DNA from: Lentilactobacillus parabuchneri DSM 5707 = NBRC 107865 | GTDB taxonomy: Bacteria > Bacillota > Bacilli > Lactobacillales > Lactobacillaceae | DNA: 61,729 nt | Direction: 5' to 3' | Assembly (NCBI RefSeq): GCF_001435315.1 | Contig: NZ_AZGK01000011.1 | Span: forward strand, 1-61,729 | In this document: positions 16,630-48,535 of the stretch, in pieces | Layout: each line of letters starts with the position of its first letter | How positions within the stretch are numbered: the first letter of the stretch is position 1 | Notes under the pieces: model-generated | Databases searched by the model: none | The model's input: only the letters and a program-made list of their open reading frames with translations | Told to the model about the DNA's origin: nothing | Translations under genes and position numbers: made by a program

Positions 16630-16641
16630 TATGTCAATTAA

Positions 16642-16824
16642 ATCATTAGAGGTTGCAACCAACATCAGTAATTAGTGGAGTTCCTACCTGAACTTTGAAG
16701 CTAATGAAAGGGGCGGTTGCCGAAGCACCATGTGAGGTAGCACTTGGCGCGCTGGGACTTGGCTTAATAGGCTTTGGACTGTCGCGGCGGACAAGTCGGC
16801 TGCGGGGCGCTAACGACAAATGAT
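16642..16824 (+). promoter_or_regulatory. lysine riboswitch (L box)
   Basis: The lysine aptamer hallmarks are in order: AGAGGTTGC at 16648, an ATCAGTAA...AGTGGAG segment, TGAAGCTAATGAAAGGGGCG near 16695, GTTGCCGAAGC, then GCTGGGACTTGGCTTAATAGGC. P1 can close by ATCATT (16642-16647) with AATGAT (16819-16824). A terminator lies 24 bases downstream. Lysine binding should end transcription before lysA. Confidence 0.95.
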
Positions 16825-29699: not shown

Positions 29700-29852
29700 T
29701 GAAGACGATTGGTCATTTTTTTGGTGGTCCATTTTTGTGACAAATATTAAATTCGTCATCCAAGGTTTTTTGTTTACCAAAAAGTAAGCGAATTATATTA
29801 TAATATTCTTAACAACAATCTTATTTTCATAAAAGGAAAGGTGATACATTTA

Positions 29853-32573
29853 ATGGCAGACAATATGAACGAGGTTCCTCCCGATCAAAAGTTGTGGCAA
29901 AGCAGTACTGATGAGTTGGTGAAGAAGTACCACACCGACGCGGAAGATGGGATAAGTGAACAAGAGGCAGCGAAACGATTGGCTCAAGATGGCTACAATG
30001 AATTAACGGCCAAAAAGAAGAGCAAGCTGCTGCAGTTTTTACTTCAGTTTAACAACAGCATCATTTACATCTTGATTGCTGCTGCCGTCATTACGCTGTT
30101 TATGCACCATTATTCAGACTCAGCGGTTATTGGGATCGTTATTATTGCCAACGCATTTATTGGATTTTTCCAAGAAATGCAGGCTGACAATGCATTAAGC
30201 AAAATCAAGGAGTTATTGGTTAGTCAAAACTACGTTATCCGTGATGGGCACAAGATTGAAGTGCCCGCCCGCGAATTAGTCGTTGGTGACTTGGTTAATT
30301 TGGAAGCGGGAGATGCCGTACCAGCCGATTTAAGACTCATTTCTGCGGATAATATGAGGGCCCAAGAGTCGACGCTGACCGGTGAAAGTAATTCGGTCGA
30401 GAAGACGGAAGATCCGATCGACAAGGATTCAGTTCCGCTTGCTGAACGTTCCAACATGGCGTTTGCCTCAACTGCCATTACCCAAGGTTCTGGTGTTGGA
30501 ATCGTTATTGCAACTGGTGAAGAGACGCAAATTGGTCAAATTCAACAGAGTGTGGCCGAGGTTAAATCTCAAGTCACGCCGTTGATGAAGAACCTCAATA
30601 AATTGGGGGTTAACTTATCACTGTTTATCGTGGCGATTGCGATTTTACTGTTTGTCCTGGGCTTGTATACCAAGATCTACAGCCTACCAACCTTAACGAT
30701 TGCGATTATCACAATGGTGGTGGGGTCTATTCCTGAAGGACTGCCGGCTTCAACATCGGTGGTTCTGGCGCGTGGTGTTCAAGTCATGACCAAGAAGGGC
30801 GCGATCGTCAAGACTCTGCCAGCGGTTGAAACACTGGGAGCCGTGGACATTGTTGATACCGACAAGACAGGAACCTTAACCAAAAATGAAATGACCGTCA
30901 CAGACGTCATCACTGACGAACATCATTACCAAGTTACTGGAATTGGTTTTGTGGACGGCGATAAAGGTGTTGATGGGGATGTGTTGCTGGATGGCCAGAA
31001 GTATGATTGGCAAAACGACCAACATTTCCGTGACCTGGTGGATATTGCCGGGACCACCACTGATGCTGAGCTCGTCCAAACCGACGGTGAATGGCAGTTA
31101 AACGGTGAGCCAACTGATGGCGCGCTCACCACTTTGTTTCATAAGCTGATTGGGCGCGAACCTGAAGTCGATGAGGTCGATACCTTACCATTTGATTCGG
31201 CCTATCGGTATAGTGCCCGGTTGATTAAAGAAGCCGGCCATAATGAGTTGATGGTTAAGGGTGCGCCAGGAACCATCTTTGATATGGCCAAACAAACCAA
31301 TCCGGCGTTTGACGACAAGACTTGGTATGCCCGAGTCGCAGAATTAACCGAACAAGGTTTGCGGGTTGTGGCTTTGGGCTACAAAGAAGTCCCGGCTGAC
31401 GTGTCCGAAATTAATCAGGACCAAATTGCTGACGGCATCAAATTAAGTGGGGTTGTTGGAATCATTGATCCACCACGTGAAGAAGTGATTCCATCGATTC
31501 AAAGTCTGCGTCGAGCAGGTGTGAAGGTTAACATGATTACCGGAGATCACCCCGACACGGCTACCGCAATCGCTCGTAAGTTGGATCTGGATGAAAGCAT
31601 TCATGCGATTACCGGCCCCGAAGTTGATGAAATGTCTGATGAAGAGTTGGTTAAAAACATTGGTCGTTATAACGTGTTTGCAAGAACGACGCCAGCCAAC
31701 AAGCTGCGAATTGTGAAGGCCCAACAGGCGAACCATAAGATCGTTGCGATGACTGGTGACGGGGTTAACGATGCCGCGGCCTTAAAGCAGGCCAACATCG
31801 GAATTGCGATGGGAATCAAAGGAACCGCGGTTGCCAAGGAAGCAGCTGATATGGTACTGGTGAATGACAGCTTTACAACCATCGTTGACGCGGTAGCTGA
31901 AGGTCGACACGTTTTTGATAATATTCAAAAGACGATTCGGTTCCTCTTGCCAACTAGTTTCGCTGAAGGGCTGGTTGTCTTGCTGAGTATGATTATGGGC
32001 CAGGAATTACCACTCTTCCCAACCCAGTTGCTGTGGATTAACACGGTTTCAGCGTTAACCATTCAGTTTGCGTTTATCTTTGAACCGGCCGAAGAATCAA
32101 TTATGATTCGTGGTCCACGGGACGTTAGAAAAGGGATCTTAGGTAAGATGGATGTCTTTGAAATCACGTACGTATCCATCCTGATCGCTGCGCTTGGAAT
32201 CTTCACCTTTGACCGGTTTGTTGATTCGGGTGTCTTGACCGCAGTTCTTGGAAGTACTATGGCGGTTAATATCATTATCTTCGGAAAGATTTTCTACTTG
32301 TTCAACATTCGAAATTCCTACCCAATTATTTCCAAACACTTTTTTGAAAATAAGATGGCGTTTATCATCATTGGGATTTTGCTTGTCTTGCAGGCAGCAA
32401 TGTTCTACATTCCGTTTATGCAGGATGTCTTCCACACTGGCAGCATCAACTTCTTCTATGGCTGGGTTGTGCCAACCATTGCAGGGTTTATTGTGCTGGT
32501 GGTTACCGAGATTATCAAGTTGGGAAGAATTGAGTACCGACGGAAAAAAGGAAAAGCAACGACAATTAAATAA
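29853..32573 (+). CDS. cation-transporting P-type ATPase (P2-type)
   Basis: This 906-aa pump has the complete P2-type order: a cytoplasmic N-terminus (cation ATPase N domain), TM1-2, actuator loop LTGES, TM4 with IPEGLPAS, phosphorylation site DKTGTLT (Asp about 337), nucleotide domain MVKGAPG, hinge MTGDGVNDAA and six C-terminal TMs. The PEGLP motif is typical of calcium and Na/K-type pumps; lactobacillar relatives are variously annotated. Ion choice cannot be fixed by eye. ATG 29853 follows GGAAAGGTGA; an earlier in-frame start lacks support. Confidence 0.92.
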   Translation: MADNMNEVPPDQKLWQSSTDELVKKYHTDAEDGISEQEAAKRLAQDGYNELTAKKKSKLLQFLLQFNNSIIYILIAAAVITLFMHHYSDSAVIGIVIIANAFIGFFQEMQADNALSKIKELLVSQNYVIRDGHKIEVPARELVVGDLVNLEAGDAVPADLRLISADNMRAQESTLTGESNSVEKTEDPIDKDSVPLAERSNMAFASTAITQGSGVGIVIATGEETQIGQIQQSVAEVKSQVTPLMKNLNKLGVNLSLFIVAIAILLFVLGLYTKIYSLPTLTIAIITMVVGSIPEGLPASTSVVLARGVQVMTKKGAIVKTLPAVETLGAVDIVDTDKTGTLTKNEMTVTDVITDEHHYQVTGIGFVDGDKGVDGDVLLDGQKYDWQNDQHFRDLVDIAGTTTDAELVQTDGEWQLNGEPTDGALTTLFHKLIGREPEVDEVDTLPFDSAYRYSARLIKEAGHNELMVKGAPGTIFDMAKQTNPAFDDKTWYARVAELTEQGLRVVALGYKEVPADVSEINQDQIADGIKLSGVVGIIDPPREEVIPSIQSLRRAGVKVNMITGDHPDTATAIARKLDLDESIHAITGPEVDEMSDEELVKNIGRYNVFARTTPANKLRIVKAQQANHKIVAMTGDGVNDAAALKQANIGIAMGIKGTAVAKEAADMVLVNDSFTTIVDAVAEGRHVFDNIQKTIRFLLPTSFAEGLVVLLSMIMGQELPLFPTQLLWINTVSALTIQFAFIFEPAEESIMIRGPRDVRKGILGKMDVFEITYVSILIAALGIFTFDRFVDSGVLTAVLGSTMAVNIIIFGKIFYLFNIRNSYPIISKHFFENKMAFIIIGILLVLQAAMFYIPFMQDVFHTGSINFFYGWVVPTIAGFIVLVVTEIIKLGRIEYRRKKGKATTIK

Positions 32574-32604
32574 TTGTAAAAATGAGAGTGAGACAAGAGG
32601 CGTT

Positions 32605-32692
32605 TTGATCCCAGAATTTAAGCCCATCAAGCGATTATTCCTGGTTTTGGAATGATTGATTGATGGGCTTAAATGGCCGGGATCAGCCGATT
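32605..32692 (+). repeat. long intergenic hairpin (repeat family relative)
   Basis: GATCCC and AATTTAAGCCCATCAA pair with TTGATGGGCTTAAAT and GGGATC, and the inner CGATTATTCC pairs with GGAATGATTG around TGGTTTT. The tip CCTGGTTTTGG matches the tip of the repeat copy at 40485-40670. It follows the ATPase stop by about 30 bases. Confidence 0.75.
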
Positions 32693-32732
32693 GCCGCACG
32701 TTTCAGCTAGATAGTATAAAATCGCTAAACAA

Positions 32733-34372: not shown

Positions 34373-34424
34373 TTCCGGGCTCACCCGGGTCTTGTCGTGT
34401 TCAAGGTCCTTTTTACCTAGAAAA

Positions 34425-34577
34425 CATGCTCCGACGACCGCAAACGAAGTGCAGCGTCTGGCCTACTTGGCGACGACACAGACGCTAATTTCTAAGTGTA
34501 CTTTAACCAAATCCCGAAAACAGGGATTTGGTCAAAGTACACTTAGAAACCGCGTCTCCCGGGTCTCGTCGCACTCT
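34425..34577 (-). repeat. modular hairpin repeat, copy 1
   Basis: On the minus strand it starts with AGAGTGCGACGAGACCCGGG, has a central hairpin TTTCTAAGTGTACTTT... with about 23-base arms, and ends CTGCACTTCGTTTGCGGTCG-TCGGAGCATG. The first A is the A of the TAG stop of the 34576-34905 gene. A partial second left end (CACCCGGGTCTTGTCG) lies just beyond at 34382. Confidence 0.85.
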
Positions 34578-34905
34578 AATCCGTTCTCCATCTTTCAAAG
34601 AAGTCCGTGTGCTTTCCCAAGTACTCGATTGCTTCTTGAGCCAACTGGTCGCCTTGCTTTTCCGCTTCTTCCGCGTCCAAGTTTAAGGCATCTCTTAGAT
34701 AGCCTCTGCCAATGTTAACAAATTTATTTTTTCGACCAAATCCTTGATCGTGGAACAAGTCGTCCCACTTTGTGATATCTTCTTTTGCTGTGTTATAAAC
34801 CAACTCGGAGAGATTCTGATTCGGATCCAAGAGGGTTGCTGCGTATGTGACGATAAATTCGTCCATATCGATGATGATTTCTTGTCGCATGTTTTTCTTT
34901 GCCAT
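34576..34905 (-). CDS. small unknown protein ending in a repeat element
   Basis: This 109-aa acidic protein has no TM segment. It contains IIIDMDEFIVTYAATLLDPN and a helical C-terminus (AEEAEKQGDQLAQEAIEYL) and could be a cytosolic helical protein; I know no function. ATG 34905 has GAGGTGA 8 bases upstream. Its TAG stop is formed by the first bases of the downstream repeat, so the last codons may have been altered by repeat insertion. Confidence 0.65.
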   Translation of the reverse strand: MAKKNMRQEIIIDMDEFIVTYAATLLDPNQNLSELVYNTAKEDITKWDDLFHDQGFGRKNKFVNIGRGYLRDALNLDAEEAEKQGDQLAQEAIEYLGKHTDFFERWRTD

Positions 34906-34973
34906 TGTTATATTCACCTCATTATCAGTTTAATGCATTTTAGGGATAAAGACCAATTAAGAATGCGTAACGC

Positions 34974-36044
34974 CTAATGATGCATTTTGAATTCCAAATA
35001 CAAATCATTATACTCCTGAACCTTTTCCGGACTTAAATTACTGTACACCTGCAGCCGGTCAATGACTTGTTGAGTCGGGTAGAACTGTCGGTCATTTCGG
35101 ATTGACTTCGGTAAAAGTCGCAACGCGTGTGTATTCGGGGTCGAATAACCAATGTATTCCGCATTTTGGGCAGCGTTTTCCGGCTTATTCATAAAATTCA
35201 AGAACGCGTAGATTGCTTTGAAATGTTTGGCCGTCTTTGGGATGACCAAATTATCGAACCACATGTTACTGCCTTCAGTCGGGACGACGTAGTGCAAATG
35301 AGAATTTTGAGACATCATTTCCGATGCTTCACCCGACCAATCAACGGCGATGGGGGCTTCTCCTTCTGCCATATACATCTTGATTTCGTCGGCAACCACG
35401 GCCTTAACGTTTGGCGACAGGCGATTGAGCTTATTCTTAGCCTTAATGAGTTCAGCTGAGTTGGTGGTGTTCACGGATTGACCGATTGAAATCAGTGAGA
35501 ATCCCAAAATATCTCGAGCCGAATCAATCAGCATAATATCGTTGCGGTATTTCTTGTCCCACAGTTGATTCCAGTGCGCCAAGGATCCCGGCTTAACAAA
35601 TTGGTCATTATAAATAATGCCTAAAGTTCCCCAAAAATAAGGAATTGAGTATTTATTATGCGGATCAAAACTTTTGTTTAGAAATGATTGACCATAATTG
35701 TTCATGCCGGTTAACCGTGATTTATCCAGTGGAATCAACATGTGATCGGCCTTCATTTTTTCAACCATGTAGTCACTGGGAACCGTCAAATCATAGCTGG
35801 TGCCGCCCTGCTTGATCTTGGTATACATTGCCTCGTTGCTGTCGAAGGTTTCGACGTTAACGTGATAACCAGTTTCTTTTTGGAACTTCGTCAAAAGGGA
35901 TGGGTCGATGTAATCCCCCCAATTGTAGAGGTTGAGGACCTTGTTGCCGGTATCCCCGGTAGATTTGGTGAGTTGATTGCTTCCATAAGCCAGACCGGCA
36001 CACAAGGCCAAAATAGCGACTAAAGCTGCGATAAATTTTTTCAT
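34974..36044 (-). CDS. potD: spermidine/putrescine ABC transporter, substrate-binding protein
   Basis: This 356-aa extracellular binding protein starts with a hydrophobic anchor (KKFIAALVAILALCAGLAYGSN; the cysteine suggests possible lipidation but no full lipobox is clear). PotD features are LNLYNWGDYIDPSLLTKFQKE, YDLTVPSDYMVEKM, AVDWSGEASEM and WFDNLVIPKTAKH. GGAGGTGA lies before the ATG, which overlaps the potC stop by 4 bases. It is the last gene of potABCD. Confidence 0.95.
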   Translation of the reverse strand: MKKFIAALVAILALCAGLAYGSNQLTKSTGDTGNKVLNLYNWGDYIDPSLLTKFQKETGYHVNVETFDSNEAMYTKIKQGGTSYDLTVPSDYMVEKMKADHMLIPLDKSRLTGMNNYGQSFLNKSFDPHNKYSIPYFWGTLGIIYNDQFVKPGSLAHWNQLWDKKYRNDIMLIDSARDILGFSLISIGQSVNTTNSAELIKAKNKLNRLSPNVKAVVADEIKMYMAEGEAPIAVDWSGEASEMMSQNSHLHYVVPTEGSNMWFDNLVIPKTAKHFKAIYAFLNFMNKPENAAQNAEYIGYSTPNTHALRLLPKSIRNDRQFYPTQQVIDRLQVYSNLSPEKVQEYNDLYLEFKMHH

Positions 36045-36862
36045 CGGTCAGTCACCTCCACAATGTTCTTCTTGCCGCCAGTCCCCGTGTTGTGGGTTTC
36101 AATCAGGTAATATACCCCGACCAAAATCAGCGAGAAGATGAACATGATGCCGGCTAACGCGTTGATTTCCAAACTAATTCCCTGGCGGGCGCGTGAGTAA
36201 ATTTCAACTGACAGCGTCGTAAAGCCATTGCCGGTCACAAAGAAGGTGACGGCGAAATCGTCCAACGAGTAGGTGATTGCCATGAAAAAGCCGGCAATAA
36301 TGCCCGGTTGGATGTAAGGCAGGATAATTTTACTGAGAATCTGCGACGGACTGGCGCCGAGGTCCATTGCCGCGTTGGTCATTGAAGGACTCATGTCATC
36401 CAATCTGGGTAAGACCAGCAATAACACAATCGGAATTTCAAAGGCGATGTGACTCAACAAAACCGACCAGAATCCCAGTGGTAATTTGAGTGCGGTAAAG
36501 AAAATCAGAAAGCTGGCACCGATGATAACATCGGGGGAAACCAATAGAATGCTGTTAAGGGAGAGTAACGTCTCTCGTTCATGGCGGCGTTTTGCGTTGT
36601 GGACCGCTAAGGCACCCATAGTTCCGACGATGGTCGAGCAAACCGATGAGAGAAGGGCAATCAAGATGGTATTCAAGAAGATCGCCAGCATCCGTTTGTC
36701 GTTAAACAATTCGCCGTAATGCTTCAGTGAAAAGCCTTGAAAATTGGTCATGGTGGTTCCCTTACTGAATGAATAAAGGATCAAATAAACGATTGGAATA
36801 TACAATAGCAAAAACACAATCGTGATATAAATTTTACCGGTTCGGGAGGCCTTTTCTTCCAT
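36041..36862 (-). CDS. potC: spermidine/putrescine ABC transporter permease
   Basis: This 273-aa inner-membrane permease has about six TMs starting with IYITIVFLLLYIPIVYLILY. The binding-protein-dependent permease loop is AAMDLGASPSQILSKIILPYIQPGI (EAA-like). It overlaps potB by one base and potD by four, so the operon is tightly packed. Confidence 0.94.
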   Translation of the reverse strand: MEEKASRTGKIYITIVFLLLYIPIVYLILYSFSKGTTMTNFQGFSLKHYGELFNDKRMLAIFLNTILIALLSSVCSTIVGTMGALAVHNAKRRHERETLLSLNSILLVSPDVIIGASFLIFFTALKLPLGFWSVLLSHIAFEIPIVLLLVLPRLDDMSPSMTNAAMDLGASPSQILSKIILPYIQPGIIAGFFMAITYSLDDFAVTFFVTGNGFTTLSVEIYSRARQGISLEINALAGIMFIFSLILVGVYYLIETHNTGTGGKKNIVEVTDR

Positions 36863-37671
36863 TATGCACGCCTCCTTTTTCGCTTGGTGTTAGTCAAAAG
36901 CATGACAATGACCATCGAAATAATTAAGACCACGCCAATTGTGGACCCCATGCCCCAGTTCATCGTGGTTAAGAAATGCTCTTCAACGGCAGTTCCGAGG
37001 GTGATAACCTTGTTACCACCGATCAAACGCGACAACATGAAGAGCGACAGTGAAGGGATGAAGACGATTTGGATGCCTGATTTGATTCCCGGCATCGTCA
37101 TGGGGATAATGACCTTGGTCAACGTTTGCCATTTAGTAGCGCCCAAATCTCGACTGGCACGGATGTACGAATCGCTGATATCCGTCAATGAATTATAGAT
37201 GGGAAGAATCATAAACGGAATTTGGATATAAGCGGCAACCAAAATGAAGCTGGCGTCGGTGAACAGCATGTGCTGGGCGGGGATGCCGACCAATTGAAAT
37301 AAATAATTGACCAGCCCGTCACGACTCAACAGCCCAATAAAGGCATAGGCTTTCAGCAGTAAATTGATCCAAGTGGGCAAAATCACCAGAAGGATCCATA
37401 AATCGCGGTGTTTGAGTTTGCTAATCACCAATGCCATCGGGTAGCTGATCAAAATGGCGAACAGGGTGATCAAAAACGCGTAAAGCACTGAATTGGCGGT
37501 CATCGTCAGGTAAGTCCCAGAGGTGAAAAATTCTTGATAGTTCCCTAGCGTAAACTCGTGATGAATGTTAAAGAATGAATAATAGAAGATCAGGGCAACC
37601 GGCGCGATGACAAACATGGCCAGCCATAAAATGTAGGGCGTGAAAAACAACGCGCGAAAATTCTTCTTCAT
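36862..37671 (-). CDS. potB: spermidine/putrescine ABC transporter permease
   Basis: This 269-aa permease partners PotC. TM1 is FFTPYILWLAMFVIAPVALIFYY and the EAA-like loop is ASRDLGATKWQTLTKVIIPMTMPGI. It starts 12 bases after potA and shares its last base with the potC start. Confidence 0.94.
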   Translation of the reverse strand: MKKNFRALFFTPYILWLAMFVIAPVALIFYYSFFNIHHEFTLGNYQEFFTSGTYLTMTANSVLYAFLITLFAILISYPMALVISKLKHRDLWILLVILPTWINLLLKAYAFIGLLSRDGLVNYLFQLVGIPAQHMLFTDASFILVAAYIQIPFMILPIYNSLTDISDSYIRASRDLGATKWQTLTKVIIPMTMPGIKSGIQIVFIPSLSLFMLSRLIGGNKVITLGTAVEEHFLTTMNWGMGSTIGVVLIISMVIVMLLTNTKRKRRRA

Positions 37672-37682
37672 CGTCGTTCCCC

Positions 37683-38771
37683 CTATTCTTCGTAACTTTC
37701 AAGCCGGTGATTAAACTTGGCTTCAGTCTCGTTGTAACGCATGATATGCATGTCGTTAGGGCCAAATGCCAAGCCGACAATCGCGTCATCGGTGCTGGCG
37801 TTGGTGGAGTGAATCAGCCATTCGTTGCCAGCCTGATCGTAAGCCAAAATTTCGTAGTAGTCGCCACGGAACAACTGAGTATCAACTTTAACTTGAAGTT
37901 TGCCCTTTTCCGGAGTGGTGATCACCAAATCTTCGGGGCGGATAACGACTTCAACGGGTTCGTTGGGCTTCATACCGGCATCGGCACATTCAAATTGGTG
38001 CCCCAAAAAGGCGACTTGGTAATCGGCGACCATTTTGCCGGGGATGATGTTACTTTCACCAATGAAGTCAGCAACGAAGTGGTTAATTGGCTCATCGTAA
38101 ATATCGACGGGCGACCCCTTTTGGAGGATTTCACCCTTGTTCATGACGAAGATCTCGTCACTCATGGCCAGGGCTTCTTCTTGATCATGAGTCACAAATA
38201 AAAAGGTGATCCCGAGGTTTTGCTGGAGCTCACGTAATTCGTATTGCATGTCCTTACGTAACTTGGCGTCTAAGGCCGATAAAGGCTCGTCTAAGAGCAA
38301 AACCTTTGGCTGGTTAACAATTGCCCTGGCAATCGCAATTCGCTGCTGCTGGCCACCAGAAAGCTCGCTAATTTCCCGGTTAACGTATTGTTCGAGCTGA
38401 ACCATTTGAAGCGCAGCGTGAACCCGTGTCTCAATCTCGTCTTTGCTGACATTTTGAACAACCAAGCCAAAGGCGACGTTATCGAAGACGTTCATGTTTG
38501 GAAAGAGGGCGTAGTCTTGAAACACCGTGTTCAGCGGTCGTTTGTTGGCTGGAATGTCGTTAATTTTCTTGCCGTCAAACAAGACTTGGCCGGACGTGAC
38601 TTCCGTGAAGCCGGCGATAGATTGGAGGATGGTTGTTTTCCCGCAGCCGGAAGGGCCAAGCAGGGTGTAAAATTCGCCTTCCTGTAATGTGAAGCTGATG
38701 TTTTTAAGAGCGGTAAAGCCGTCGTCATATTTTTTATAGACGTTTTTTAATTCAACAATGGTTTTGCTCAA
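37683..38771 (-). CDS. potA: spermidine/putrescine ABC transporter ATPase
   Basis: This 362-aa ATPase energises polyamine import. Walker A is GPSGCGKTT, the signature is [13 protein letters not shown], Walker B is [12 protein letters not shown] and the switch histidine is in [14 protein letters not shown]-type C-terminal domain follows from about residue 240 (IIPGKMV...[10 protein letters not shown]). It starts with TTG 7 bases after AGGAGG and is first in potABCD. murB, which precedes potA in many firmicutes, is absent here. Confidence 0.95.
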
Positions 38772-38857
38772 CGGACTTCCTCCTAATATGATTGAATATT
38801 TTAATTATACAGATTGATTGCACGCGGCCACAAGGAAATTGACTAGACAGTCGGCGA

Positions 38858-39229
38858 TTAATGTCTGGATGACCGGTGGCCGGAACTGCCGTTCATTTTA
38901 TGGACGTGGCGCTTAAATTTCGGGAGTGCGTCATCACCAACAAATTGGAAGTTTTTCATCTTGCCGTTAAATGGGTTACCGGCCAATCGAACTTTGAGCC
39001 AGCGTTCCATGACGGCAATCATTGAATTGATCGATTCAATTCGGGCAGGGACATTTTCACTTTGAGCGGCCTGCATGATGTCGGTTTTTAAACGGTTCAC
39101 CAAATTCTGATGGTAGTCCACGAGTTCTTGGGTGATTGGTGCGTCTTTGTATTTATTAAACAGTTTTTCGATTTGTCGCATGGCGTCTTTTGAATCCCGC
39201 GGCGTGTAGTATCTGTCGGAATTTGGCAT
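38858..39229 (-). CDS. unknown basic helical protein
   Basis: This 123-aa soluble protein consists mainly of predicted helices (YYTPRDSKDAMRQIEKLFNK; ELVDYHQNLVNRLKTDIMQ) and ends in a Lys/His/Arg/Ser-rich tail. The tail composition suggests nucleic-acid contact but that is only a guess. GAAAGAAG lies before the ATG. It is divergent from asparaginase and upstream of potA on the same strand, about 85 bases away. Confidence 0.6.
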   Translation of the reverse strand: MPNSDRYYTPRDSKDAMRQIEKLFNKYKDAPITQELVDYHQNLVNRLKTDIMQAAQSENVPARIESINSMIAVMERWLKVRLAGNPFNGKMKNFQFVGDDALPKFKRHVHKMNGSSGHRSSRH

Positions 39230-39319
39230 ATCTGTGACTTCTTTCTTGATTGATAGTTATTCATGTTCCATTTTACGGTACAATGGTATAGATTAACAGG
39301 TTGATGGAGGATGAAATTA

Positions 39320-40294
39320 ATGAAAACAATTCTAGCAATTCACACGGGCGGGACAATTTCGATGTCTCAAAATGAAAAGGGCGAAGTGGTTCCGAATGAT
39401 GAAAACCCAATCGCCGAAGAACAGGTCATTTTAAAGGGCCAAATTAACTTGATTACCGATGAAATGTTTAACCTGCCATCCCCTCATGTCACGCCGGAAG
39501 TGATGTTAAAAATTAAGCAGCGGATTATGAAAGCCATTGATGATGGTGTTGACGGCGTCGTGATTACCCATGGAACCGATACACTGGAAGAAACGGCGTA
39601 CTTTTTGGATTTAACGTTGCCGAACACGATTCCGGTGGTGGTGACCGGGGCGATGCGGTCGTCAAATGAAATCGGCTCGGATGGGTTGTACAATTTCAGA
39701 AACGCGATTCTGGTGGCTGCCACCGATGAATCCTACGGTAAGGGCGCGTTGGTCGTCATGAATGATGAGATCCATACAGCCAGGTTTGTGACCAAAACCC
39801 ATACCACTAACGTCGCAACCTTTAGAACGCCGACTTTTGGACCAATTGGCATTGTAACGCAAAACAAGGCAAAATACTTCCAGGAATTAATCCAGACGGA
39901 AGTTTGTGATATTAATAAGGTTGTGGAAGGCGTTTATCTCATCAAGGCCTATGCAGGAATGGATGGTGCACTGTTTGATGCAGTTAACAATCCAAGCACC
40001 AAGGGATTAGTGATTGAAGGACTGGGAGCGGGAAATGTGCCGCCGCAGACACTGCCGGCAATTCAAAGACTGATTGACAATGATATTCCGATCGTGTTGG
40101 TCTCGAGATGTTATAACGGTGTCGCCCAGGATATTTATGATTATGAGGGCGGCGGAATCCAACTCAAAAAGATGGGCACAATTCTGTGTCAGGGCTTGAA
40201 TGGCCAAAAGGCGCGGATTAAGCTTTTAGTCGGATTGAGTGATAATATGGTCGGAGATGAGTTAAGGGAATTTATGAGTAATGCAATATCGTAG
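39320..40294 (+). CDS. ansA: type I L-asparaginase
   Basis: This 324-aa cytosolic asparaginase hydrolyses asparagine to aspartate and ammonia. The first catalytic threonine is in HTGGTISM and the second in VVITHGTDTLEETAY; the VLVSRCYNG and GALVVMNDEIH stretches are also typical. ATG 39320 is chosen because GGAGG lies 9 bases upstream, while the ATG nine bases earlier abuts it. The TAG stop is contributed by the first bases of repeat copy 2. Aspartate from this step could feed the lysine pathway. Confidence 0.94.
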   Translation: MKTILAIHTGGTISMSQNEKGEVVPNDENPIAEEQVILKGQINLITDEMFNLPSPHVTPEVMLKIKQRIMKAIDDGVDGVVITHGTDTLEETAYFLDLTLPNTIPVVVTGAMRSSNEIGSDGLYNFRNAILVAATDESYGKGALVVMNDEIHTARFVTKTHTTNVATFRTPTFGPIGIVTQNKAKYFQELIQTEVCDINKVVEGVYLIKAYAGMDGALFDAVNNPSTKGLVIEGLGAGNVPPQTLPAIQRLIDNDIPIVLVSRCYNGVAQDIYDYEGGGIQLKKMGTILCQGLNGQKARIKLLVGLSDNMVGDELREFMSNAIS

Positions 40295-40407
40295 AGTGCG
40301 ACGAGCAACGGGTGAGACGGTTTCTAAGATAACTTTGATTGAAGCCCTGCTTTTGGGGCTTCGATTAAAGTTATCTTAGAAGTTAGTCTCAGTTGCGTCG
40401 GAGCGCG
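40293..40407 (+). repeat. modular hairpin repeat, copy 2
   Basis: It starts AGAGTGCGACGAGCAACG, has a central hairpin with TCTAAGATAACTTT and AAAGTTATCTTAGA arms, and ends GTTGCGTCGGAGCGCG. Over its core it is identical to copy 4 read on the other strand but lacks the 45-base tail. It begins within the ansA stop codon. Confidence 0.88.
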
Positions 40408-40484
40408 TTTCCACTAGGTAATAGGGGAACAGCTAGTTATCGGATTAAGCGGAGGAAGTTGGTTCGCGGAGCACATTTTTTCGT
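40408..40484 (+). repeat. spacer related to the 48.3-kb repeat cluster
   Basis: The segment GGATTAAGCGGAGGAAG-TTGGTTCGCGGAGCAC resembles the reverse strand of 48309-48345 (GGATAAAGCGGAGGAAG-CTGGCTTGAGTAGCAC). It fills the gap between copies 2 and 3 and carries no ORF. Confidence 0.55.
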
Positions 40485-40670
40485 AGAGTGCGACGAGCAA
40501 CGTTTTGACACGCCAAGTAGGCTAGGCGGTTTCACAGCCGTCGGAGAGCTAAGGTCCCTCTAATTGAAATCCTGGTTTTGGATTTTAATTAGAGGGTCTT
40601 AGATCGCAGTGTCAGTTGCGTCGTCCACAGGACTAGACGCTGCACTTCGTTTGCGGTCGTCGGAGCACGT
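40485..40670 (+). repeat. modular hairpin repeat, copy 3
   Basis: It starts AGAGTGCGACGAGCAACG and contains an extra CCAAGTAGGC segment also seen in copy 1. The core hairpin has GCTAAGGTCCCTCTAATT and AATTAGAGGGTCTTAG arms. The tail is CCACAGGACTAGACGC then TGCACTTCGTTTGCGGTCG then TCGGAGCACG, as in copy 4. Confidence 0.85.
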
Positions 40671-40721
40671 TTAGACTACCTTGCCCCCTAAAAGAATCCC
40701 ACCCAAGAAAGAAGTGACACC

Positions 40722-41885
40722 TTGAAAACTCTATACGACAAGCTGCGTACCGCCCAAATCGACGAGCAGCTGATTAATGCATTTCAAAACGACAGTGACA
40801 TCGTTTATACCGGTGTCATCCAATTTTTAAGCAGTCAAGATTTTATCATGTTGACGTATAACGACTATGGCATTCAAGACGGCGAAGTCTATCTCAAGAT
40901 TTCTTCGGTTAAATCGGTTGAAACTGACAGTTATGATTTAGCCAATATGCAGCAGCGAATCGAGTTTGACGAAAAACATCATCTGAATTCCCAGCCGGCT
41001 TTTGACCTTCCGATTAAGATGAGTGATTCGCTGTTTGACCGCGTCATTCAGACGTTACTGACAAACAAGCGGGTTTCGTTGATTATCACCGAGCAGGCTG
41101 GCAAGTTGAAGTACAATGAGGGCTTGATTAGCGATGTCCAAGAAGATGGGTTGACGTTTACCAACATTAACAAATTTGATTTTTCCAAGCGGCCAATTTT
41201 TAATATTAAATTTGACGATATTCGCGGAATTGAATTTGGCGGAACGGAACTCCAGCTTCTTCAAAACGTGCTCGACATGGTCAAGCCGGAAAATCACGTT
41301 GAAAATGAAATTATTTCAGATCCCGACCAGTTTCGCAGTGAGGTGGACCACTTACGCCGAAGTGGCGACTGGGTGGTGATCGATACCAACGATGACCGTA
41401 AATACTTCTATGTTGGCCAAATCATTTCCAGTAATCCAAAGGAACTGGTGATGATGGTGGTTGACATGAATGGCCGATTTGGCGGATACGTCTGGATTCG
41501 GTATGATGATATTGCCAGGATCATTACGGATTCTGATTACCTGCGTGTGATTGCCAAATTTGTTAAAGCAAATAAGGACAGCAAGCACTTCTCGTTACCG
41601 GTGCTGAACGCCGATCGGGCATTTGATAATGCTGATAATATTTTGATTTACATCGTGACTCAATCGATCCAATATCAAAAGCTGATCCGGTTTGAAACCG
41701 CCGACGAGGACAATTTTGTCGGTTATCCAACCTCAATTAATTTAAAAACCGGGGTCTTAAACGTAGAATTGTTGGATGTCGATGATGATGGGGAGCTTCC
41801 GATTAAGCAGGTTGGAATTGAAAATATCCGTGAGATGGCTTTTGACTATTTCAAAGCATTTCTGACGGAAAATGAAATTGATTAG
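40722..41885 (+). CDS. unknown protein with four internal beta repeats
   Basis: I do not recognise this 387-aa soluble protein, but it is built of four similar units at about residues 15-80, 103-180, 203-280 and 304-380. Each reads roughly: helix, a strand ending in G-x-I, L-x-M, D-x-x-G, V-x-I, then (D/E)-(D/N)-I-x-x-I and a helical exit (compare YFYVGQIISS...VWIRYDDIARI with VYTGVIQFLS...VYLKISSVKSV). The pattern suggests tandem small Sm-like barrels. It starts with TTG behind a weak GAAGTGA. Its stop lies two bases before the frame of the next membrane gene. Confidence 0.65.
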   Translation: MKTLYDKLRTAQIDEQLINAFQNDSDIVYTGVIQFLSSQDFIMLTYNDYGIQDGEVYLKISSVKSVETDSYDLANMQQRIEFDEKHHLNSQPAFDLPIKMSDSLFDRVIQTLLTNKRVSLIITEQAGKLKYNEGLISDVQEDGLTFTNINKFDFSKRPIFNIKFDDIRGIEFGGTELQLLQNVLDMVKPENHVENEIISDPDQFRSEVDHLRRSGDWVVIDTNDDRKYFYVGQIISSNPKELVMMVVDMNGRFGGYVWIRYDDIARIITDSDYLRVIAKFVKANKDSKHFSLPVLNADRAFDNADNILIYIVTQSIQYQKLIRFETADEDNFVGYPTSINLKTGVLNVELLDVDDDGELPIKQVGIENIREMAFDYFKAFLTENEID

Positions 41886-41896
41886 GGGTGAATGTT

Positions 41897-42262
41897 GTGG
41901 CAAAAAAGAAGGGCTTTAGATTACCAAAATGGTTGGTTAATACCCTCCAGATGACAATTCTGGTGGCAATTTTGATGGCTGTTTATAATTTTCTTGGTCC
42001 CATGGTCTTTAAAAACGGCAGTTATTTCCCGTGGTGGACGTTTCCGTACTCGGTCGTCGGTGCATTATTCTTAATCGGGGGCTGGAATTTCTTGTCCCAC
42101 CGGATGAATATCATGCATAACCAAATTGTGGCGGAAGATGAAGCCAAAAAGAAGCGGGCTGAACAGATTCGTCAAGCTAATGCCGTAAAGGAACAAGCTG
42201 AAGCAGAAAAACGACGTGAACGAAATGCCAATCGTAACAAAGGCAAGCAACAATCGAGGTAA
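41897..42262 (+). CDS. small membrane protein with charged tail
   Basis: This 121-aa protein has two TM helices (LQMTILVAILMAVYNFLGPMVF and FPYSVVGALFLIGGWNFL) followed by a cytosolic coiled-coil-like tail rich in Glu, Arg and Lys (EQAEAEKRRERNANRNKGK). GTG 41897 is favoured, 5 bases after AGGGGTGA. It follows the four-repeat protein by 11 bases and precedes a zinc-ribbon protein by 5, so the three are one operon. The function is unknown. Confidence 0.65.
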   Translation: MAKKKGFRLPKWLVNTLQMTILVAILMAVYNFLGPMVFKNGSYFPWWTFPYSVVGALFLIGGWNFLSHRMNIMHNQIVAEDEAKKKRAEQIRQANAVKEQAEAEKRRERNANRNKGKQQSR

Positions 42263-42267
42263 GCAAA

Positions 42268-42492
42268 ATGGCAGAGCAGGAATTTTCATTTTGTCCGTAT
42301 TGTGGTGCGAAGTTAAATCCCGAGGACGTCGTTTGTCCAAATTGTGGCAAGAAACTGCCAAAGAAGGATGAGGACGTCAAACCCAATAAGACGTGGGCGG
42401 CATTAAGCCATCTGTTCGGTAATCCCTATAAAGAGGGGATGAGCAGGTATCGGGCGGAAAAAGCGGCAGAAAAGCACAAAAAGAAGGACTGA
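42268..42492 (+). CDS. zinc-ribbon protein
   Basis: This 74-aa protein opens with a zinc ribbon (FCPYCGAKLNPEDVVCPNCGKKL, two CxxC pairs 12 residues apart), then a basic tail without TM segment. It is last in a three-gene unit with the repeat protein and the membrane protein. Such ribbons often mediate protein or nucleic-acid contacts; the partner is unknown. The terminator starts within its last codons. Confidence 0.75.
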   Translation: MAEQEFSFCPYCGAKLNPEDVVCPNCGKKLPKKDEDVKPNKTWAALSHLFGNPYKEGMSRYRAEKAAEKHKKKD

Positions 42493-42522
42493 AGCGATTT
42501 TTTCGTTTCGGTCCTTCTTTTG
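42480..42522 (+). terminator. terminator overlapping the zinc-ribbon gene end
   Basis: AAAGAAGGACTGAAGCGA pairs with TCGTTTCGGTCCTTCTTT around a T-rich loop; the stop codon sits in the left arm. Confidence 0.85.
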
Positions 42523-42616
42523 GGTTTGTGTCATGATTGAGTTGAATGTCGCGGTGCCTTGTGTTGTGGGCGACGCCCCTTGGTGATAGTTTTGTGGTTC
42601 ATTTTACTTGGTTGCA

Positions 42617-42771
42617 ACGTGCTCCGACGACCGTAAACGAAGTGCAGCGTCTAGTCCTGTGGACGACGCAACTGAGACTAACTTCTAAGATAACTTTAAT
42701 CGAAGCCCCAAAAGCAGGGCTTCAATCAAAGTTATCTTAGAAACCGTCTCACCCGTTGCTCGTCGCACTCT
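42617..42771 (-). repeat. modular hairpin repeat, copy 4
   Basis: On the minus strand it starts AGAGTGCGACGAGCAACG, carries the same core as copy 2 base for base, and has the long tail of copy 3 with one change (TTTACGG for TTTGCGG). It begins directly after the TAA of the 42772-42954 gene. Confidence 0.88.
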
Positions 42772-42954
42772 TTATCTTACAAACTGCTCTATCGTTCTTT
42801 TCTCATCCGGTGTTGGATCCGATTCCATTGATTTTATATTGTGGAGGCGTTCGACTGAGATATGCAAATTAAAAGCGAGTGCAGTATCCGGCATGTCGTT
42901 CTTCTTTTGATAATTAATAATTTCTTCAGCTAAAGTACTAAATTGTTCTGCCAT
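42772..42954 (-). CDS. small helical protein, possibly HTH
   Basis: This 60-aa protein has helices EEIINYQKKNDMPDTALAFNL and SVERLHNIKSM, resembling the core of an XRE-like helix-turn-helix but without its full length. GGAGGAG precedes a pair of adjacent ATG codons (42957, 42954). The stop abuts repeat copy 4. It stands alone; small lactobacillar proteins of this look are common but uncharacterised. Confidence 0.65.
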   Translation of the reverse strand: MAEQFSTLAEEIINYQKKNDMPDTALAFNLHISVERLHNIKSMESDPTPDEKRTIEQFVR

Positions 42955-43033
42955 CATAATCTCCTCCATCAAAATTCGTGTTTCTGACGTCTACATAACT
43001 TTATTATACCAATAATTGACAGATTGACACATG

Positions 43034-46222: not shown

Positions 46223-46267
46223 CAAAAAGTCATCTAATTGCAATTTATCCATCTAAATACAACGGAA

Positions 46268-46338
46268 CATGCTCCCTTCGCTGGTATTGTCCAGATCAGG
46301 TTCGATGGGTTTTTCTCAGCCAAGTAGGCACCCCAGAT
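46268..46338 (-). promoter_or_regulatory. TPP riboswitch (THI box)
   Basis: On the minus strand the aptamer is nearly consensus: CTGGGGTGCC, GGCTGAGA, ACCCATCGAACCTGATCTGG, then AATACCAGCGAAGGGAGC. TPP binding should favour the downstream terminator and shut off ykoEDC. Confidence 0.97.
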
Positions 46339-46450
46339 AGTTGTATGATCAAATTTAGTATACAAGATATAAAATTAATTTACAAACGAAACGAGACCTT
46401 TACAATAATAGTGTAACGATTATCGACATAAAAATTGAGGAGGAACAACT

Positions 46451-47257
46451 GTGGTAAAAGTGATTGCAAGTGACATGGATGGGACATTTTTGGATGATAA
46501 CGGTGCCTTTGATGCCGATCAATTTCAAACACAACTGGATCGACTGGGGGAAAAGGGGATGCACTTCATTTCCGCCAGCAGTAATCAGTATCAGCACCTA
46601 TTAGGCTTATTTAAGGACGTTTCCGGCCCAATTTCGTACGTTTGTAACAACGGTGCATTAGTTATCGATGAGCGTGGCGTGATTATTCACGAAGAAATCA
46701 TCGACCATTTGGTATTGAAAAAAGCCTTGGATTGGATTTTGACCGAGCCCAGTTTTGCCGGCGCCGAGGTGATTTTGGTCGGCAGAAACGGCACTTACTG
46801 TAACCTGCCCAGTGAGTCCGACCGCTTTGTTGCGTCTAAATATTTCTATGAGAATATGCAATCAATGGCCGATTTACGGCTCGTATTTGATTCGATTTAT
46901 AAGATTGACATCACTTGGGAAGAGGGCGGTGTCATCAAACTCCAAGATGAATTTAACCATCAATTTAGTGGCAGATTGAACGCCATTTCTTCCGGGATGA
47001 ACGGGTTGGATATCATGGTTGACGGGACCGATAAATTGACTGGCGTTGAGATGTTACTTGACAGCTGGAATTTGAGCTGGGCCGATGTCGCCGCATTTGG
47101 TGACAACGACAACGATTTTGAAATGATTAATGCCGCTGGAGACGGTTATGCCATGAAAAATTCGGCGCCGGAGTTACTGCAAAAAGTTGAAAACACGACT
47201 GAATATTCCAATAATGACCAAGGGGTCCAGCAAAAGATTAATGACTATTTAAATTAA
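46451..47257 (+). CDS. Cof-type HAD-superfamily phosphatase
   Basis: This 268-aa sugar- or nucleotide-phosphate phosphatase of the Cof/YidA subfamily has motif I SDMDGTFLDD, motif II region ISASSNQY, a type IIB cap in the middle, and motif IV FGDNDNDFEMI. It starts with GTG behind GGAGGAAC. Its last 9 bases overlap the 3' end of the convergent choloylglycine hydrolase gene. The substrate is not identifiable. Confidence 0.9.
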   Translation: MVKVIASDMDGTFLDDNGAFDADQFQTQLDRLGEKGMHFISASSNQYQHLLGLFKDVSGPISYVCNNGALVIDERGVIIHEEIIDHLVLKKALDWILTEPSFAGAEVILVGRNGTYCNLPSESDRFVASKYFYENMQSMADLRLVFDSIYKIDITWEEGGVIKLQDEFNHQFSGRLNAISSGMNGLDIMVDGTDKLTGVEMLLDSWNLSWADVAAFGDNDNDFEMINAAGDGYAMKNSAPELLQKVENTTEYSNNDQGVQQKINDYLN

Positions 47258-48184
47258 AAATCGGTTGGCGCTTGGGTAACGGGAGAGGAGATCCGGCAGC
47301 GAAAAGCTGAAGACCTGATCAGAGTCGTGGTATCTGAAGTAATACGTCTGGTCGCTTGAATCGAGGACCGAGATGTAGTGGGTGTAGTTAAAGTTCGGGT
47401 GGTCGTCCATGGACGGCTTGTAAGGAATTGACACGTCATCGAGGACATTAAATAATCGGTTGCGCGCTTCGAATTGGGTCCGGCTTTCCTGAGCGCCAAG
47501 CTTGTTGACCGCAGCCACCAGGAATCGGGTAGTTGGCGTGTTGGTGGCTTTAGGCAGGTCTTGGCTCATGATAATTTCCTGGGATTTGGTCGCTAAGGCA
47601 TTTTCGTTAGTGACACCAAGCGTTTTTTCCAGGCGAGCCATGTGTTCCGGATAGGTTGGCGAATTGGTCATCACACCAATTGAATCAGAAATGACTTCCA
47701 AGCCGTCAACAGTCGGCTCGATGATCAGTGTTTGGCCGGATTTGTCGGTCAAAATCCAATGAAACGCAAAGACCTCCTCGCCGGCCATCCAGTATTTCCC
47801 GATGATGACAATGTTGTCGAGGTCTTCTTTGACTTCATCAAGGGAGGCGTGTTCGCCCAGCACCCATGGTAGGAAGTCTTGGGGCGTTAGATTTAATTTG
47901 TCGTTAACTGGATCATCCAGGTAATGGGCCTTGAGTGGAAACATCAATTCGGCACAGCTAAGTCCCTGGGTGTTGACGCCGTCTGCGACCAAGATGTTGT
48001 CAGTCCCCTCAGTGCGGCCGCCACCAATATAAGGATATTTGATGGGACGGGTCCCAGATAAAGCGGTTACATAAGATGGCTGGTTAATTAAAACCGGCTT
48101 CCATGCCGCTTTGACTGGAAAGTCCATGGTCCGTGCTAAAAGAACGTGTTCGTTTAAAGTTTGCAGCGTTAAGCTGGTGCACAT
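47249..48184 (-). CDS. choloylglycine hydrolase family amidase (bile salt hydrolase or penicillin V acylase type)
   Basis: This 311-aa N-terminal nucleophile hydrolase cleaves linear amides. With ATG 48184 (GAGGTGA upstream) the protein begins M-C-T-S-L, so Cys2 becomes the catalytic N-terminal residue after Met removal. Arg18 and Asp21 (LLARTMDF), the asparagine in GVNTQGLS, Asn in MTNSPTYP and the late arginine region QFEARNRLF match known catalytic positions. Bile salt versus penicillin V preference cannot be decided by eye. Its end overlaps the convergent HAD gene by 9 bases. Confidence 0.88.
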   Translation of the reverse strand: MCTSLTLQTLNEHVLLARTMDFPVKAAWKPVLINQPSYVTALSGTRPIKYPYIGGGRTEGTDNILVADGVNTQGLSCAELMFPLKAHYLDDPVNDKLNLTPQDFLPWVLGEHASLDEVKEDLDNIVIIGKYWMAGEEVFAFHWILTDKSGQTLIIEPTVDGLEVISDSIGVMTNSPTYPEHMARLEKTLGVTNENALATKSQEIIMSQDLPKATNTPTTRFLVAAVNKLGAQESRTQFEARNRLFNVLDDVSIPYKPSMDDHPNFNYTHYISVLDSSDQTYYFRYHDSDQVFSFSLPDLLSRYPSANRFLI

Positions 48185-48287
48185 TGTGGTCACCTCGTGA
48201 TTGATTGTCTGGTTATCAAGATACGACTCAAATATAACACGAATTTGCGGGTGTATGAGGAGAAATGCTGTGCAGGTGAGTTACGAA

Positions 48288-48535
48288 CCGGCTTGACTCG
48301 CACTAAACGTGCTACTCAAGCCAGCTTCCTCCGCTTTATCCAATTAGGGGTTCCAGTGCAAAATTCGCACTAAAACCCCTAATTAAATAAATGCTCGGAA
48401 GCTCCCGGCTTGACTCGCACTAAACGTGTTCGTAGGAGCAACAACCTGCACCTAAGTCGGCTCCACCAGAAATCAAACTCGATTTCCGGCGAACCCAACT
48501 TAGGCTCCGGTTATTCCCGCTCCTACTCGCACTCT
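48288..48535 (-). repeat. second intergenic repeat cluster
   Basis: It contains two identical 24-base direct repeats (48288-48311 and 48405-48428, CCGGCTTGACTCGCAC...), a hairpin with AATTAGGGGTT and AACCCCTAATT arms (48342-48384), and a nested hairpin closed by GTAGGAGC (48432) and GCTCCTAC (48526) with inner CCTAAGT/ACTTAGG. Read on the minus strand it starts AGAGTGCGAG, like the family at 34-43 kb. No ORF is present in this 400-base gap. Confidence 0.8.

Follow-up and report, generated by a model that had tools for sequence, protein, structure and literature searches.

In Lentilactobacillus parabuchneri and a number of its relatives there is a family of repeated elements, each a large stepped RNA hairpin, and most arrays of the family have the orientation of the upstream gene and lie in its 3′ UTR, immediately past the stop codon. 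The RNA fold of the repeat family is strongly supported, and the evidence suggests a widespread RNA element, not yet catalogued, at gene ends in several lactic acid bacteria. The best reading is that of a REP/BOX-like interspersed repeat which works as a 3′-UTR RNA hairpin against the terminating ribosome, i.e., a structured repeat family in mRNA that is turned over at stop codons and provides a stable hairpin acting just past the stop. Somewhat better than even odds (about 0.55) are given to this reading.

The copies first recognised are in the window, i.e., the whole stretch of 61,729 nucleotides that was analysed. A preliminary description of the window listed four copies, all of which are present at the places given, and gene coordinates confirm that two of them begin at the A of a TAG and one directly after a TAA (Table 1). 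The places were right, but the right end extends to ...GCAC-GTTT, so the spans have been corrected. The shared left end does exist; however, what had been taken for conserved sequence is one half of a terminal stem that co-varies (GTGC/GCAC, GTGT/ACAC, GAGC/GCTC). There are exactly four occurrences of AGAGTGCGACGAG in the window; when up to two mismatches are allowed there are 6, compared with 0.55 expected, and 6 was reached in 0 of 100 shuffles. There are only three arm sequences among the four listed copies, because 108 bases of copy 2 recur unchanged in copy 4. The predicted RNA fold of copy 2 has a free energy of -68 kcal/mol (z -11.59).

Table 1. Copies of the element and adjoining genes in the window
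Feature	Position	Strand	Remarks
Copy 1	34422..34577	-	full element with extra 3′ side hairpin; starts at A of TAG of the 113-aa ORF
Copy 2	40293..40410	+	118-nt core element; starts at A of the asparaginase gene TAG
Copy 3	40485..40672	+	in tandem with copy 2 and downstream of it; both arms carry side hairpins; not at a stop
Copy 4	42615..42771	-	starts directly after TAA of the 61-aa ORF
Further copy	32585..32703	+	11 nt between copy and stop of P-type ATPase gene (29841-32573)
Two directly abutting copies	48305..48535	-	divergent intergenic region; exception, without a stop codon in front; first copy (48422-48535) is a model match, second read by eye
Tail (CTAGGTAA...) and partial right-hand element	40411..40478	+	between copies 2 and 3; read by eye
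Asparaginase gene	39311..40294	+	TAG overlaps copy 2
113-aa ORF	34576..34917	-	TAG overlaps copy 1; without Pfam match
61-aa ORF	42772..42957	-	TAA abuts copy 4; without Pfam match

As RNA, each unit forms a stepped hairpin about 117 nt long (a core of 117-124 nt in 21 aligned copies from the same genome). There is a terminal stem of 4 bp, then a GA/GA internal loop and two short stems with fixed asymmetric bulges between them; the central stem, of roughly 20-28 bp, has a conserved tip. The arms of the listed copies co-vary as had been claimed, and the co-variation holds when many copies are aligned. In the alignment of the 21 own-genome copies there are two-sided changes in 25 of 36 pairs, with a covariation score of 0.492 (0.187 when shuffled). 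In an alignment of 51 copies from seven genera, which had been fitted to the fold model, two-sided changes are found in 34 of 36 pairs (578 such cells), 96.2% of cells pair, and the covariation score is 0.873, compared with 0.218 when shuffled and at most 0.164 when slid. The central arms of 67 of the 72 collected copies contain 1591 Watson-Crick pairs, 152 G.T, 5 A.C and 77 others; a non-redundant set of 26 copies has 42 G.T and 1 A.C. The ratio of 152 G.T to 5 A.C mismatches in the long stem indicates that one strand folds, namely the mRNA-sense strand. Thus, the family shows compensatory change on one strand, as a structured RNA under selection does.

Co-varying arms could also arise if perfect palindromes were preserved by template-switch DNA repair rather than by selection on RNA, and the presence of tandem or half copies hints that replication goes wrong at hairpins. 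However, such repair is blind to the strand and restores Watson-Crick pairs, whereas G.T greatly exceeds A.C in both sets of copies, and the bulges and the GA/GA loop stay constant while the stems change. A bias from C to T in the sense strand might raise the count of G.T, but scarcely by a factor of thirty. Preservation by repair is considered very improbable.

The position of the element relative to genes was determined with the fold model in 861,729 bases, in stretches chosen on contigs known to carry copies; the stops of those stretches were not known beforehand. Before counting, 27 of 90 model matches were excluded (22 that read the same palindromes on the opposite strand, and 5 that were weak or cut), and two partial matches were extended by eye as far as the left end (window 40485; locus L135, 2678). 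A first element finder, which had given 14 arrays, was replaced by the model hits because it was too strict, and an earlier count (64 rows, with a cruder choice of genes) was superseded by the count of 47 arrays. In this set, 32 of 47 arrays have a co-oriented stop of a frame of at least 50 open codons that ends within -15..+3 of the left end, but only 1 of 47 has one within the same range of the right end; for random positions the count was 317 of 5000. With frames of at least 100 codons, the counts were 29/47 (left end), 0/47 (right end) and 77/5000 (random positions). A second set of genus and family loci, with one array per locus in 47 of 49 loci and additional arrays in the same loci left uncounted, has a stop at the left end in 28/47 and at the right end in 1/47. 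Placement relative to stop codons is therefore non-random in two sets of 47, as the preliminary description had proposed, and its term "3′-UTR element" is borne out by the sense orientation, the position directly behind the stop, and the identity of the folding strand with the mRNA strand.

The junction itself varies. Exact T|AG junctions are present in 11/47 and 16/47 arrays of the two sets, some arrays start 2-6 nt behind the stop, and the left end of 15/47 arrays in the first set lacks a qualifying stop. Two annotated plasmid genes are followed closely by an element (CDS end at 2500 and element start at 2501; fabI end at 1498 and element start at 1501), and the CDS of one annotated ABC-transporter gene extends 23 nt into the element. 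Five ABC-transporter loci (L070-L074) were scored as misses in the second set, though the annotation of a relative ends the CDS inside the element. Terminator-like sites downstream of elements are no commoner than behind other genes (13/47 arrays and 187/661 genes; in a stricter scan, 7/47 and 115/666), and for background genes with a T-run the median distance behind the stop is 58 nt.

The position could be explained without any role in RNA, if the element were a DNA-level mobile hairpin (MITE- or REP-like) whose structure serves only single-stranded transposition, and if its place at stops were a leftover of purifying selection. Insertions just past a stop codon would be expected to do little harm, and the high copy number, the empty sites and the tandem arrays suit such an element. 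Transposition of the IS200/IS605 type, which acts on a single strand, would need one folding strand, and so the single folding strand fits here also. However, selection alone predicts left ends scattered from the stop to the terminator, whereas 26 of the 37 arrays with a stop of a frame of at least 100 codons in -150..+20 fall within -6..+3.

The distribution of the family strongly suggests that the element has spread through genomes, and we infer that it did so by insertion. The fold model has 96 matches in the L. parabuchneri genome (G000). The family is present in 19 of 24 genus genomes (the other 5 have 0 matches) and in 71 of 301 family genomes; G000, G001, G006, G008, G009, G013 and G022 have 66-136 matches each, and G003, G005, G015 and G017 are likewise element-rich. 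Where orthologous stops were compared and judged by eye as occupied or empty, some relatives lack an element at the stop in question, and others, including sister species, have unlike copies there. At one such slot in six species, the elements are 58-73% alike and the gene ends 70-97% alike; some copies at one slot have been inherited and not replaced (G001 and G015). The claim that the element provides the 3′ ends of genes stands in a restricted sense, in that it often gives the AG of a TAG stop. At three genes for which forms with and without the element were compared, however, the protein ends at the same point with almost identical residues; thus, at those three genes the protein is not reshaped.

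Some machinery that reads the junction (e.g. T|AR) or the mRNA may have steered insertion to stop codons or to sites of termination. This would account for the exact T|AG junctions and for unlike copies filling the same stop in sister species. The stop is TAG in 8/9 occupied but 4/15 empty asparaginase sites, and in 6/6 occupied but 1/5 empty sites of the 113-aa ORF, an excess of TAG that does not consist of independent observations, because the species are related. Against directed insertion, no such machinery was found, a subset of arrays lies 2-6 nt behind the stop, the base preceding the left end is T in 43 of 115 contexts, and ancestral arrays with differential loss could also leave unlike copies at one slot. 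Directed insertion is tentatively regarded as possible. A bolder version is doubtful: a new class of mobile element, a structured RNA-coding unit, would land in sense at or inside translation stops, contribute its own first two bases to the stop codon (T|AG), be replaced again and again at the same stops during evolution, and influence the ribosome at termination.

Several candidates for a mobiliser were considered. Y1 transposase (PF01797) is encoded in 7/24 genus genomes, including the element-rich G003, G005, G015 and G017, but is absent from the seven genomes with 66-136 matches; it does not track the element among the 24 genus genomes and was rejected. Reverse transcriptase (RVT_1) was rejected for the same lack of correspondence: it is present in 8/24 genus genomes, including the element-rich G003 and G017, and is missing from those seven and from G005 and G015. 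Integron integrase, with 0/24 genus genomes above the TIGR02249 cut-off, does not track the element and was rejected also. For target-site duplications, 33 single copies had a mean boundary repeat of 1.48 (1.45 shuffled; 220 of 500 shuffles as high) with the boundary set at GTTT, a setting under which the tail could conceal a duplication farther out. With a strict motif, the 861,729 bases yielded no orphan left end with an orphan right end 0.4-4 kb away, and thus no larger element with a gene between its ends. One window query had no BLAST match in phage records, and one 18-letter pattern had no exact match in viral contigs. Two queries from this genome each had BLAST matches in 18 plasmid records; a query from a different genus matched 2, and a third query none. 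Few plasmid and no phage matches are odd for an active mobile element; BLAST performs poorly on sequences this divergent. Taken with the scatter expected of left ends, the absence of Y1 transposase from seven element-rich genomes and of a detected target duplication makes the DNA-level hairpin rather unlikely, even with Y1 transposases in the four other element-rich genomes. Copy number, empty sites and turnover suggest that the element is mobile, as first proposed, but neither a mobiliser nor a target duplication was found; and the non-random position at stop codons may reflect either targeting, as proposed, or selection after insertion. The original observation is confirmed and its interpretation partly supported. 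The readings on mode of spread overlap with the best explanation, and the odds are not meant to sum to one.

The attC sites of integron gene cassettes are folded sites at gene 3′ ends, of which the structure is kept while the sequence varies, and the element, lying in gene orientation, resembles them in these respects. Weaker matches to the integron-integrase model (tyrosine recombinases) are found in 23/24 genus genomes, but likewise in 14/14 controls. The elements differ from attC in lacking an integrase above the cut-off, and in being dispersed on both strands, singly or in arrays whose copies have no genes between them, i.e., without a cassette array. Recombination of attC uses the folded bottom strand, whereas here it is the sense strand that folds. 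An integron-like origin is barely conceivable.

In Escherichia coli, 446 of 4,072 REPs are within 15 nt behind stop codons by the tool of that paper, and REPs near stops are reported to stall ribosomes and lower translation (available part of PMC12306157). Like REP, BIME and REPIN sequences, the elements are numerous, interspersed, extragenic palindromes of which a share lies within 15 nt of stops (32/47 and 28/47 arrays). They differ in length (117 nt, compared with 20-40 bp for REPs in the excerpt of PMC3733652), in arms that differ between copies but co-vary, in having the stop at one particular end, and in that seven element-rich genomes have no match to Y1_Tnp, the domain of the RAYTs that mobilise REPs. 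BOX, RUP and SPRITE of Streptococcus pneumoniae are also small interspersed repeats (BOX is modular) that are folded when transcribed; they are over-represented between convergent genes, and an insertion sequence has been proposed to move RUP and, less clearly, BOX (available part of PMC3049150). That part reports no docking at stop codons, and the comparison is of descriptions, not of sequences. MITEs resemble the element in being short, highly base-paired, non-coding and multi-copy; however, the element has no detected target-site duplication, its pairing is strand-specific, and no related insertion sequence was found in 861,729 bases (strict motif). In Rfam 15, the window at gathering score contained two riboswitches and a tRNA only, and nine loci at E<=1 gave one TPP riboswitch that passed its cut-off and seven hits to miRNA or snoRNA families that did not pass theirs; no family coincided with any element by either measure. 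No description of the element was found among the top-ranked results of a literature search with thin cover of subscription journals.

In the preferred reading of a 3′-UTR hairpin, the element would spread through the genome and be exchanged at stop-codon sites, and a very stable hairpin would sit a few nucleotides beyond the stop codon of the upstream gene. There it would meet the terminating ribosome and 3′-to-5′ nucleases, and may alter termination, recycling or mRNA lifetime of the upstream gene, much as is reported for E. coli REPs within 15 nt of stop codons. Several lactic acid bacteria, food species included, carry up to dozens of these large RNA structures within bases of stop codons. 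The precise placement of a repeat on stop codons poses a mechanistic question whether or not the element acts there. If the element does act at stops, it would add a layer of control at translation termination or at mRNA 3′ ends for many genes, and the natural occupied, empty and swapped sites make such control testable.

The repeat element, of about 117 nt, is a conserved stepped RNA hairpin in sense orientation, which is docked at stop codons and whose contents turn over. Its position was scanned with a covariance model of 21 copies from its own genome (alignment A1). The scan covered 861,729 bases, made up of the window and 40 stretches, each 20 kb long, of the own genome and a second Lentilactobacillus genome, G001; because the copies were located by a covariance model, they were found regardless of stops. 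Of the 90 matches, 22 were dropped because they read a palindrome already matched on the other strand, and five because they were weak or cut, which left 63 elements grouped into 47 arrays. Genes in these counts are open frames, uncurated. A stop preceded by at least 50 open codons ended between -15 and +3 of the left end in 32/47 arrays. The corresponding figures are 1/47 for the right end, read on the opposite strand, and 317/5000 for random positions; raising the requirement to 100 open codons gave 29/47, 0/47 and 77/5000. Thus, placement relative to stops, as the preliminary description had proposed, is non-random. The 15 arrays without a qualifying stop at the left end include some at a greater distance 3′ of a gene and some in a divergent region. 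A second set (47 loci, one array each, selected as best matches in the genus and family) gave 28/47 at the left and 1/47 at the right. The junction falls exactly between T and AG of the stop (T/AG) in 11 of the 47 arrays of the covariance-model set and in 16 of the second.

Independent annotation is consistent with docking at stops in three places: on a L. buchneri plasmid, the last base of a CDS is 2500 and the first of the element 2501; on a L. backii plasmid, fabI reaches to 1498, with the element beginning at 1501; and in an ABC-transporter gene of a L. brevis beer plasmid, the final 23 nt of the CDS lie within the element, from which the last six whole codons and the stop are taken (locus L193, 2464-2523). 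We take the ABC transporter of the beer plasmids to be, probably, the hop-resistance transporter. The element-bearing gene is found on beer plasmids of several genera, which suggests that gene and element travelled together between species. TAG is the stop of 16/29 occupied genes vs 144/678 background ORFs (Fisher, p = 1e-4); as TAG accounts for only 5/15 stops without element overlap, the excess comes mainly from the T/AG junction.

The asparaginase stop was compared in 24 genomes of the genus, occupancy being judged by eye; the protein has the same end point in all 24, ...A(I/V/L)S. At this TAG the element is present in the own genome and the five nearest genomes, whereas G006, G009 and G004 have at the same stop an element of the same plan with a different sequence, and 15/24 genomes have none immediately at the stop. 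TAG is used at 8/9 occupied vs 4/15 empty sites, the latter mostly in more distant species. The 113-aa ORF, compared in the own and 11 named Lentilactobacillus genomes, is occupied at its stop in the own genome, otakiensis, sunkii, parakefiri, rapi and dabitei (TAG in 6/6), empty in kefiri, fungorum, raoultii, diolivorans and farraginis (TAG in 1/5), and has a possible element remnant in hilgardii. A third gene is occupied in the own genome and 4/5 relatives and empty in kefiri (G008); a fourth is occupied in the query genome G008, G013 and G001 and apparently in G015, where the left end is changed, while the G022 sequence ends too early to judge. Among six species each, elements at the same stop are 58-73% (113-aa ORF) and 64-86% (asparaginase) alike, compared with 70-97% and 79-88% for the gene ends; random own-genome copies have a median likeness of 75% (5-95%: 64-88%). 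As the elements are less alike than the gene ends, the contents turn over and the slot persists. A recognisably inherited copy is common to G001 and G015 at two genes.

The majority of 41 own-genome segments, taken from left end to right end, share one plan. From the outside inwards, AGA is followed by a terminal stem of 4 bp and a GA/GA internal loop. The next stem, about 8 bp long, has one bulge on its 3′ side; a fixed bulge on the 5′ side (GGG, GGTT or similar) separates it from a further stem of about 6 bp. Beyond an asymmetric loop, TAAG...CTTA opens the central stem, which is some 20-28 bp long and has a tip resembling CC-YGGTTTT-GG; GTTT closes the element. A smaller group differs in its tip (GAACG...) or bears additional side hairpins on the 5′ or the 3′ arm. 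By eye, a tail beginning CTAGGTAAMAG often lies 3′ of the element, and 3′ of this an A-/C-rich stretch, a further copy or a terminator-like hairpin; in a scan, terminator-like sites lay 3′ of 13/47 arrays vs 187/661 other genes, i.e., without enrichment. Copies also abut directly (GTTT/AGAG). Right halves without left halves occur (by eye; locus L030, 1617-1990, also L016, L006 and L131), often begin near the hairpin tip, and resemble what a cut through the tip and the loss of one arm would leave. At L143 (17667-17740), the right end and tail start are in a short tandem duplication; at L086 (953-1619), from another genus of the family, five successive copies with a spacing of about 137 nt stand behind one TAG stop.

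The covariation of the arms, claimed previously, holds over many aligned copies. In A1, 93.2% of cells are paired, with two-sided changes at 25/36 pairs; in A3 (51 copies, seven genera), 96.2% are paired, with two-sided changes at 34/36 pairs (578 cells). The covariation score was 0.492 in A1 (shuffles, 0.187) and 0.873 in A3 (shuffled, 0.218; partners slid 1-3 columns, 0.08-0.16), where A3, being aligned to the model, leans towards the structure and the shuffles ignore relatedness among copies. As sense RNA, the core of copy 2 has a folding energy of -68 kcal/mol (z -11.59), and as antisense one of -51.2. With the arm register fixed by Watson-Crick (WC) pairs only, the 67/72 collected elements that were usable contained WC 1591, G.T 152, A.C 5 and other 77; all 36 pairs of A3 gave G.T 98, A.C 6 and other 64. 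A similarity-filtered set (26 copies, usable arm in 25) gave G.T 42 and A.C 1, G.T being higher in 21 elements, lower in 1 and equal in 3. A process acting on double-stranded DNA would be expected to leave G.T and A.C equal, which was not observed; therefore, the element-sense strand is the one required to pair, and behind genes this is the mRNA strand. The pairing molecule could also be single-stranded DNA of that strand.

The four copies first noted in the window are real and exact, except that their right ends had been placed too short, the true right end (GCAC-GTTT) being a few bases further. In copies 1 and 2, the first base is indeed the A of a TAG stop, and copy 4 does lie directly behind a TAA; copies 2 and 4 have 108 identical bases in common. 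The array in the divergent region also has a third, partial left end, and its setting is 5′ instead of 3′.

Features of the window
Feature	Position	Strand	Setting
Further element copy	32585-32703		11 nt behind stop of P-type ATPase gene
Copy 1	34422-34577	-	stop of 113-aa ORF
Copy 2	40293-40410	+	stop of asparaginase gene
Copy 3	40485-40672	+	tandem, 3′ of copy 2
Copy 4	42615-42771	-	behind 61-aa ORF
Two abutting element copies	48305-48535	-	divergent region, upstream of choloylglycine-hydrolase-family gene
Choloylglycine-hydrolase-family gene	47249-48193	-	
Lysine riboswitch	16639-16820		
TPP riboswitch	46256-46345		

The element is in 19/24 genus genomes (E<=1e-3), in 71/301 genomes and 19/40 genera of the family (E<=1e-6; 12 candidates scored per genome) and in 9/295 genomes sampled from the order, of which one lies outside the family. 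The own genome gave 96 matches among 150 candidates scored, where the two strands of one palindrome may each count, and, in an independent count, 42 left ends when up to one mismatch is allowed. Some of the best matches outside the genus are one ABC-transporter region (L070-L074), also on plasmids; plasmid records gave few matches, and phage records and viral contigs none (one query each). Directed insertion at stops is a bolder reading. Y1 (PF01797) is in 7/24 genus genomes, missing from seven element-rich ones including the own and present in four other element-rich ones; RVT_1 is in 8/24, the own genome being without it; and no integron integrase exceeded the cut-off in the genus genomes. 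There was no target duplication in 33 single copies, and no large gene-carrying form of the element in the 861,729-base sample.

PMC2267715 lists one L. johnsonii repeat family, Lac-1, considered here by its description, and PMC2864571 lists RNA motifs of Lactobacillales, most with an Rfam number. No published description of the element was found in the literature searched, and we file it among the small interspersed structured repeats.

Given the ribosome footprint, and pairing that begins one to a few nt behind the stop, a terminating ribosome would cover the terminal stem and have the long stem at its front edge. The effect may be similar to that of E. coli REPs, which within 15 nt behind stop codons are reported to stall ribosomes and lower translation (PMC12306157, citing an earlier study). 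Alternatively, the element could protect against 3′-to-5′ decay, as suggested for BOX (PMC3049150). As the geometry is the same as in the cited REP case, a REP-like effect or decay protection would be the most likely action of the element.
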